From NCBI GenBank assembly GCA_902706235.1, contig CACSJR010000011.1, positions 124,001 through 188,000 on the forward strand: a stretch of DNA of 64,000 nt, written 5' to 3'. The position numbers and the translations under genes were made by a program. Below, piece by piece: positions 33,864 through 64,000 of the stretch. Below the pieces are notes generated by a model, which was given only the letters and a program-made list of their open reading frames with translations, did not search any database and had not been told where the DNA came from. This DNA comes from Citrobacter sp. 18056 (GTDB taxonomy: Bacteria; Pseudomonadota; Gammaproteobacteria; Enterobacterales; Enterobacteriaceae). Every line of letters begins with the position of its first letter. Position 1 is the first letter of the stretch.

Positions 33864-33939
<76 letters not shown>

Positions 33940-34097
33940 TTAATCTTTGTCTTTCACGCTGCTACTGCGTTGGCTGCTTTCACTCACCTTAATCACTTAC
34001 TTGAGTAAGCTCATAAGGATTCGTTCACTTGCCGCCTTGTCGCAACCTGAAATCCTGCGATTGGGTGGTGCGTATATCTTGCGATACTTTCAAATTT
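33940..34097. repeat. Spacer with degenerate ERIC copy (glyX-glyY)
   Basis: Contains an ERIC-derived core: gcgttggctgctttcactca, cacttacttgagtaagctca, cttgccgcc. The canonical inverted ends are missing. It is nearly identical to the next spacer. With one tRNA it makes a 234-bp tandem unit. Confidence 0.8.
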
Positions 34098-34173
<76 letters not shown>

Positions 34174-34332
34174 TTAATCTTTGTCTTTCACGCTGCTACT
34201 GCGTTGGCTGCTTTCACTCACCTTAATCACTTACTTGAGTAAGCTCATAAGGATTCGTTCACTTGCCGCCTTGTCGCAACCTGAAATCCTGCGATTGGGT
34301 GGTGCGTATATCTTGCGATACTTTTCAAATTT
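34174..34332. repeat. Spacer with degenerate ERIC copy (glyV-glyX)
   Basis: Second copy of the tRNA spacer, one base longer than the first (an extra T near its right end), otherwise apparently identical. It holds the same ERIC-like core. Confidence 0.8.
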
Positions 34333-34408
<76 letters not shown>

Positions 34409-62618: not shown

Positions 62619-62694
62619 GCCCGGATAGCTCAGTCGGTAGAGCAGGGGATTGAAAATCCCCGTGTCCTTGGTTCGATTCCGAGTCCGGGCACCA
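62619..62694 (+). tRNA. pheU: tRNA-Phe(GAA)
   Basis: 76 nt with encoded CCA, anticodon GAA in attGAAaat, arms GCCCGGA/TCCGGGC. Same place as E. coli pheU, next to yjdC. tRNA-Phe genes are common integration sites, but no integrase or repeated 3' end is seen downstream in the window. Confidence 0.97.
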
Positions 62695-62705
62695 CTATTC
62701 TAAAG

Positions 62706-62731
62706 AACCCGCCTATGGCGGGTTTTTGCTT
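62706..62731 (+). terminator. Terminator of tRNA-Phe
   Basis: 8-bp stem aacccgcc / ggcgggtt with a 3-base loop and TTTTTGCTTTT tail. Confidence 0.9.
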
Positions 62732-62969
62732 TTCTGCGTATCAATATTTCGTGACATCCCTCTCTAAACAATAAAATGCACTCCCTCGACACCATTCAAT
62801 CATGAACAGAAACCGTCCTGATTAAGGGGGTTGCAGGCTTTTCCATGAACATTTCATCCAAATTGAGCCCATTCAGGTAGCAATTGCACAAACAATAATT
62901 GTCTAAACAGTGTACTATTGACGCTGTACGCGTCGATAAATTAACCACCGGATACCGGAAGGCTGCACT
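62732..62969 (+). promoter_or_regulatory. Upstream region of the Hha/Cnu-like gene
   Basis: About 240 bp, AT-rich, without a gene. Candidate promoter pieces (ttgtctaaac, tactat, ttgacg) lie at 62897-62925, but I cannot settle on one -35/-10 pair. GGAAGG lies 8 bases before the next ATG. Confidence 0.4.
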
Positions 62970-63179
62970 ATGACCGTTGAGAACTACCTGAAACGACTTC
63001 GAAATGTGAACGAAGAGCAGATGCTCGAAAAAATTGTTGCCCGCATTGAAAACAGTATTGAACCGGAATATATGGCTGCATTCCAGAAAGCCGCCGATAA
63101 GCGCCGGGCAGAACTGTGTGATTATCAGTTCAGCCTGAACGACGACTTTGGTGAATTGAAAGCCCCTCGCAAGTATTAA
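62970..63179 (+). CDS. Hha/Cnu (YdgT)-like small nucleoid-associated modulator
   Basis: 69 residues. The first 49 align with Cnu and Hha: MTVENYLKRLR against Cnu MTVQDYLLKFR; MLEK against Hha TLER; AADKRRAEL against AADHRRAEL. The acidic Glu20 and Asp43 correspond to Hha Glu25 and Asp48, which contact H-NS. The last 20 residues (ending GELKAPRKY) replace the family's VW end. The role is inferred: a partner of H-NS. Not the standard hha or ydgT locus. No homologue at this site in E. coli K-12. Confidence 0.7.
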   Translation: MTVENYLKRLRNVNEEQMLEKIVARIENSIEPEYMAAFQKAADKRRAELCDYQFSLNDDFGELKAPRKY

Positions 63180-63300: not shown

Positions 63301-64000
63301 ATGGAATTAAAGGATTATTACGCCATTATGGGCGTGAAGCCGACGGACGATCTCAAGACCATTAAGACCGCATATCGTCGTCTTGCCCGCAAGTACCATC
63401 CTGATGTCAGTAAAGAACCCGATGCCGAAGCCCGCTTTAAAGACATTGCGCAGGCCTGGGAAGTGCTGAGCGACGAACAGCGTCGCACTGAATATGACAC
63501 CCTCTGGCAACACCGCAACGACCCGCCGTTCCGTCAGCAGGCACAGTCTGATTCGCAACAACAAACCTACAGCCAGGAAGAGTTCGACGATATCTTTTCC
63601 TCCATTTTTGGCCAGCACGCGCAGCAATCGCGTCAGCAACATTCTGCCCGTGGCCATGACGTCGAAATTGAAGTCGCCGTTTTCCTCGAAGAAACGCTCG
63701 AAGCCCACACCCGCCCTATCAACTACACGCTGCCGCTTTACAACGTTTTCGGGATGGTTGAGAAAGAAATCCCCAAATCACTCAACGTTAAAATCCCGGC
63801 CGGCGTTGGTGACGGGCAGCGCATTCGTCTGAAAGGCCAGGGCACGCCGGGCGAGAACGGTGGGCCTGCGGGAGATCTGTGGCTCATCATCCGCATCGCG
63901 CCACATCCGCTGTTTGATATCGTCGGACATCATCTGGAAATTGTGCTGCCGCTCGCCCCATGGGAAGCCGCGCTGGGGGCAAAAGTGAAGGTCCCGACGC
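63301..64000 (+). CDS. cbpA: Curved-DNA-binding protein CbpA (DnaJ-like), 3' end outside window
   Basis: 233 residues visible of about 306. N-terminal J domain (about 1-70) with the HPD motif in [11 protein letters not shown], then a linker and the DnaJ-type C-terminal substrate domains ([42 protein letters not shown]). Very close to E. coli CbpA, a DnaK co-chaperone and nucleoid protein of stationary phase. In E. coli it lies at 23 min with cbpM; here it is beside tRNA-Phe. Confidence 0.96.

Follow-up and report, generated by a model that had tools for sequence, protein, structure and literature searches.

A distant Hha/Cnu-related gene beside tRNA-Phe in Citrobacter with conserved H-NS-contact positions and an altered C-terminal tail

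What might a relative of Hha and Cnu do at H-NS when its C-terminus no longer resembles theirs? The question is raised by a 69-residue open reading frame on the plus strand (62970..63179, ATG to TAA) near the end of the window, the 64,000-nucleotide stretch of a Citrobacter sp. 18056 contig that we analysed. The frame lies, as had been described from the letters alone, between tRNA-Phe and cbpA. The tRNA-Phe (gaa) gene (62619..62694, plus strand; ARAGORN, Rfam), which tRNA 3'-end repeats mark as an island integration site in relatives, ends 275 bases before the start of the frame, and cbpA (63301..64000, plus strand, cut by the window end; an open reading frame with 77% DNA identity to E. coli cbpA) begins 121 bases downstream of it. 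A GGAAGG on the same strand (62957..62962), read from the sequence as a likely ribosome-binding site, ends seven bases before the ATG. Since an intrinsic-terminator-like hairpin (62703..62727, plus strand; fold z -4.45) follows the tRNA gene, the Hha/Cnu-related gene likely needs a promoter of its own.

Some other features of these surroundings are worth recording. Upstream of the gene, an inverted repeat, TATTGACGC-TGTAC-GCGTCGATA (window 62916-62938), is present in all three carrier genomes and appears as a hairpin in the leader fold (z -1.93); it may be an operator or a leader hairpin. The hairpin after tRNA-Phe varies in sequence between carriers (window 62700-62735 compared with L064), with two in tandem in G001, and this variation suggests past insertion and loss at the site. 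Co-regulation with cbpA was considered and rejected, as the cbpA leader is also conserved in genomes without the gene, and no functional tie between the two was seen. Far upstream, three tRNA-Gly (gcc) genes stand in tandem on the minus strand (33864-34408).

The open reading frame is a real gene under purifying selection. Six database clusters of equal length share 86-99% identity with the window protein, and a profile search added a further full-length relative, P0007, at 61% identity; the window protein and P0001-P0007 are the "eight sequences" referred to below. By their record names, P0003 and P0004 belong to Scandinavium metagenome genomes and P0002 to Serratia marcescens. The DNA comparison covered three genomes of the genus (G000, G001 and G005), whose pairs differ by 16, 10 and 18 synonymous codons and by 1, 1 and 2 non-synonymous ones (dN 0.006-0.012, dS 0.29-0.63). 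Within the tail, G000 and G001 have five synonymous codon differences and zero non-synonymous, and G000 and G005 differ solely by one non-synonymous codon, K64Q. A chance reading frame is thus ruled out by the full-length relatives, at 61-99% identity, together with the almost wholly synonymous changes. For cbpA the same pairs give dN of 0.018-0.026 and dS of 0.16-0.34; these dS values are lower than those of the gene and rank the pairs in the same order, a pattern consistent with descent of the gene together with the chromosome in the three genomes.

Is this gene homologous to Hha and Cnu? The earlier note had proposed a Pfam search, and by itself that search did not pass: the HHA profile (PF05321) matches with 18 bits (E 0.0036), below its gathering score of 25, so that homology rests on NCBIfam and on profile-profile E-values, which do establish it. 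The NCBIfam YdgT model matches at E 7.8e-7 (29 bits against a cut-off of 101) and the Hha model at E 1.1e-5 (25.6 bits against a cut-off of 90), both matches ending at residue 50, and a profile of the eight sequences aligns with one of 26 YdgT over columns 1-51 (hhalign 96.6%, E 5e-10). In a PDB sequence search, the product could be aligned to residues 1-52 of Cnu (2jqt) with one gap (E 0.0045) and to residues 7-55 of Hha (1jw2) without a gap (E 0.0099), which bears out the match over the first 49 or so residues, with at most one gap, that the note had drawn. Codons 1-50 (62970..63119) are accordingly homologous to helices 1-3 of Hha/Cnu. The eight sequences form one clade (99/99) in a 68-row, 51-column tree, and the stem of this clade measures 2.71 changes per column. 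YdgT and Hha form groups of their own (94/81 and 63/82), and the next set around the eight takes in Hha together with six rows of plasmid or accessory origin (97/84), although with so few columns and such long branches the order of the groups is tentative. The separate clade and the long stem rule out a frameshifted recent copy of the genome's own ydgT.

The acidic positions by which Hha contacts H-NS are both present, as had been noted from the sequence. In the available portion of PMC4519777, H-NS binding by Hha is described as strictly dependent on D48, with E25 important too, and an Asp to Asn change is reported to abolish it; we found no report on Asp to Glu at this key Asp. By gapless alignment to Hha, the E25 position is Glu in 8/8 sequences (E20 of the window protein, 63027..63029), and the D48 position is Asp in six of the eight and Glu in the other two, P0005 and P0006 (D43 of the window protein; 63096..63101 with the following K44, which stands where Hha and Cnu have His). 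The stretch that surrounds D43 is one of the best conserved that the eight have in common with Hha/Cnu, and 28 of the 50 core positions are invariant.

The positions associated with sensing, on the other hand, are replaced. As described in a portion of PMC6491433, Cnu H45 is the pH sensor, helix 4, which holds W67, is the thermosensor and part of both the osmosensing response and the H-NS interface, and Cnu-H-NS binding weakens with rising temperature. A portion of PMC11825884 likewise has helix 4 of YmoA responding to temperature and salt and touching H-NS, and one of PMC11796372 reports weaker H-NS binding by Hha with a C-terminal fusion. The helix-4 Trp, already noted as missing from the window copy, is found in 0/8 sequences versus 60/60 other family rows. 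A pattern selected 55 distinct family open reading frames from 97 loci (at least six family-match loci, L011, L025, L076, L083, L088 and L090, gave none by this pattern and were left out); a Trp lies among the last 12 residues of 52 of them, and the remaining three are the copies of the gene itself. A mixed-query search yielded 1339 homologues, and among the 120 matches listed 115, mostly YdgT, were read: in 108 the final 12 residues include a Trp, and the seven that remain carry a C-terminal extension or an altered end beyond a visible VW. His follows the key Asp (AADHR) in all 115 of these listed homologues versus none of the eight, which have Lys (seven) or Arg (one); in three accessory rows the pattern missed the His, and their sequences show DHR.

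The gene scores below two sets of curated cut-offs and has neither the Trp helix nor the His, and we therefore do not file it as a standard Hha/YmoA/Cnu member. It belongs to a homologous sister clade that likely works in the manner of such a member.

The tail itself (codons 51-69, 63120..63176) had been noted as a different 20-residue sequence. It does differ from the Hha and Cnu tails, but is probably a changed YdgT-type helix-4 segment and not a foreign one, the link being visible mainly in the more divergent relatives. Eight of its 19 residues (Y52, Q53, F54, D58, D59, G61, R67 and Y69) are invariant in 8/8 sequences, a conservation that hints at a positive role more than at simple loss. 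Position 67 is Trp in 65/65 distinct YdgT and Arg in all of the eight, which end at Tyr69; by equal numbering, R67 (63168..63170) thus stands at the position of Cnu W67, a register for which the test is weak in the window copy.

That register, chosen after viewing the alignment, was used to compare the last eight residues with those of YdgT, with shuffling and 856 C-termini, taken from window reading frames at least 40 residues long, as controls. For P0007 (VAKSARRY, against YdgT VPKSVWRY and kin) the mean score is 18 (p 0.0002) and none of the 856 C-termini reaches it. The values are p 0.0036 for P0004 and p 0.0048 for P0002 (3/856 each), p 0.014 for P0003 (7/856), p 0.048 for P0006 and p 0.053 for P0005 (13/856 each), and weak for the window copy (p 0.08, 26/856) and P0001 (p 0.15, 53/856). 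The chosen offset is the best among 15 for seven of the eight, by a margin of only 0.1 for P0005 and P0006, and P0001 prefers another; shuffling of the whole tail supports the YdgT link for P0007 only. The tail carries a charge of -1 or -2 in seven sequences and +1 in P0007, compared with +3 in 11 Hha, 0 to +3 in 40 YdgT and, for the nine plasmid or accessory copies, +2 to +5.

The predicted fold is consistent with Hha but does not establish its four-helix fold. From the seven-sequence alignment of its own family, AlphaFold places helices at residues 3-11, 15-29 and 32-60 (pLDDT 69, pTM 0.31), with residues 63-69 below pLDDT 50 and no Foldseek match. With P0007 and 26 YdgT added, the helices fall at 3-11, 16-29 and 32-55 (pLDDT 71, pTM 0.48), residues 54-66 are under 50, and Foldseek returns Hha 1jw2 first (E 0.77) and Cnu 2jqt twelfth (E 1.6), neither of them significant and from a model that is not independent of the family assumption. 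Both models have three helices and no confident fourth, and the tail lies in their low-confidence part.

The gene is an additional paralogue, as had been proposed. Four places in the source genome match PF05321, three above the cut-off (L001, L002 and L003) and the fourth, below it, being this gene. L001 is hha, beside tomB-like and ylaC-like open reading frames, and L003 is ydgT, beside an rsxA-like one. L002 is a third Hha-type gene, near toxin-antitoxin-like open reading frames; it encodes 67 residues (L002:1477-1680 and L041), keeps the Trp, occurs in G000 and G005, and groups on the tree as a pair with a copy from a Pantoea plasmid. Both hns and stpA are encoded in the same genome, hns between galU-like and tdk-like open reading frames.

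Among known systems, Cnu/YdgT gives the best NCBIfam match, and the gene product shares with it the start MTV.xYL, 29-35% identity to 26 YdgT with a one-residue gap, E20 and D43 and, in the same numbering, K64, R/K68 and Y69 of the tail. It differs from Cnu/YdgT in lacking W67 (Arg by equal numbering) and the last two residues, in having Lys or Arg for His45 and in a rewritten linker (51-61). With Hha/YmoA it aligns gaplessly over 49 residues and keeps the equivalents of E25 and D48, but its tail charge is reversed, it has no Trp and no His49, and no tomB-like neighbour lies beside the gene. Plasmid Hha proteins (IncX, IncI2 and others) include the highest identity to the window protein outside its own family among the matches listed (the IncX NC_011148 copy, 48.9% over 45 residues), yet the nine plasmid or accessory copies read keep the tail Trp and His and do not group with the eight. 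One of the IncI2 proteins, Hha of plasmid pPC11 (L103:395-619), has a C-terminus that departs from other Hha tails, as though a frameshift had occurred close to the end. The hha2 and hha3 genes of E. coli 042 are, like this gene, extra chromosomal paralogues beside hha and ydgT; the gene is set apart from them by their description in a portion of PMC4864382, where they are highly similar to hha, whereas it belongs to a distant clade with an altered C-terminus.

The gene occurs in three of the seven genomes of the genus (G000, G001 and G005; PF05321, protein and DNA searches). No such gene was found in the short stretch from the tRNA end to the conserved cbpA leader of G003 and G004, nor in the 700 bases before cbpA of G002, which has an insert of about 2.9 kb, or of G006, where the tRNA lies on a different contig. 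A whole-genome protein search matched ydgT alone in both G002 and G004 and had no match in either G003 or G006. In G003, a genome listed as 100% complete, the PF05321 search found hha only and not ydgT. Among the 392 family genomes, matches at E 0.001 occur in 143, and only the three carriers match better than 1e-6, the next best having 31 bits and a match ending at residue 50; across 394 genomes of the order two match at 1e-8, both in the genus, with G005 absent among the matches listed. The GTDB 220 species collection, from which records close to the window's genome may be missing, yielded one confirmed locus, that of G005, when scanned with a peptide pattern, and a scan of viral contigs confirmed no relative.

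Two mobile origins were considered and set aside: a viral or plasmid gene (none confirmed in viral contigs, one weak phage match, best listed plasmid match 48.9% identity) and a mobile-element gene between two att repeats (no second 18-base tRNA end, allowing up to 3 mismatches, in the window). The tRNA-Phe site is an integration hot spot, and tRNA 3'-end repeats recur near cbpA in other genomes. In G005 the tRNA copy and the tRNA-end repeat beside the gene are about 73 kb apart (L065, G005:C7:223600-227000); hot-spot loci also include L070, L068 and L069, with about 2.9 kb between tRNA and cbpA in G002 and several tRNA-end repeats in C37 of G006. A carrier record titled Chryseobacterium sp. 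18061 (CACSKA010000007.1, L062) corresponds to the enterobacterial contig C7 of G005 and so is mislabelled or from a mixed assembly.

How, then, might the protein act? Our tentative reading, to which we give a little less than an even chance, is a distant Cnu/Hha paralogue that would likely partner the N-terminal domain of H-NS or StpA and be insensitive to temperature, salt and pH. Helices 1-3 would fold and dock as in Hha, Arg67 would occupy the Trp position and, with the Trp anchor gone, helix 4 would remain undocked; affinity for H-NS would then be lower yet nearly constant across conditions, and the net effect would be a steady background of H-NS/StpA co-silencing beside the condition-responsive Hha and Cnu. 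Because the positions needed for docking on H-NS or StpA are kept and selected while the sensing parts are replaced, a constitutive, probably weaker partner is the simplest reading, and the altered tuning of H-NS silencing suggested in the earlier note is plausible. Against this count the Glu for the key Asp in P0005 and P0006, the pTM of 0.31 and lack of a Foldseek match for the own-family model, the missed cut-offs, and the conservation of the tail itself.

Helix 4, moreover, itself touches H-NS, and its loss could abolish binding and not only regulation. Such a loss is part of an account that we consider unlikely, in which the fold is re-used and a different partner is bound through the conserved tail motif (YQF, DDxG, RxY): a changed helix 4, which a portion of PMC6491433 makes part of the Cnu/H-NS interface, would agree with it, as would the 8/19 invariant tail residues, the stem of 2.71 changes per column and the Glu at the key Asp in 2/8, but against it stand the retention of E20 and D/E43 in 8/8 and the conservation around D43, one of the strongest shared with Hha/Cnu. 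Somewhat unlikely in our view is a competitor or anti-silencer that fills the Hha site on H-NS or StpA and, with no helix 4 and a slightly acidic tail, fails to support bridged filaments, relieving silencing like truncated H-NST. The kept contact positions beside a different C-terminal part agree with this, as does the tail charge, which is -1 or -2 in 7/8 whereas 60 other family rows range from 0 to +5, and H-NST offers a precedent of a shortened family member antagonising H-NS (in a portion of PMC3897749); however, H-NST works differently, oligomerising with H-NS, and there is no evidence of derepression from occupancy of the Hha site without helix 4. A decaying remnant of an Hha gene delivered by an island at tRNA-Phe would account for the integration site, the absence from 4/7 genomes of the genus and the tail without Trp. 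It is nonetheless very improbable, as the substitution pattern speaks strongly against it (dN 0.006-0.012 versus dS 0.29-0.63, with dN below the 0.018-0.026 of neighbouring cbpA), and 8/19 tail positions are invariant down to 61% overall identity.

A wider reading, which we regard as possible though doubtful, would be a deep Hha branch with its sensors natively off and its H-NS dock under strong selection, that is, a natural constitutive H-NS modulator with a new conserved tail motif through which some additional partner may be recruited. Proteins of the Hha family are considered to relay temperature, salt and pH to H-NS by way of helix 4 and also, in Cnu, of a buried histidine. The gene is a natural candidate for a conserved relative with neither sensor; such a relative would separate docking from sensing and make it directly testable whether sensing resides in the Hha-type partners or in H-NS itself.
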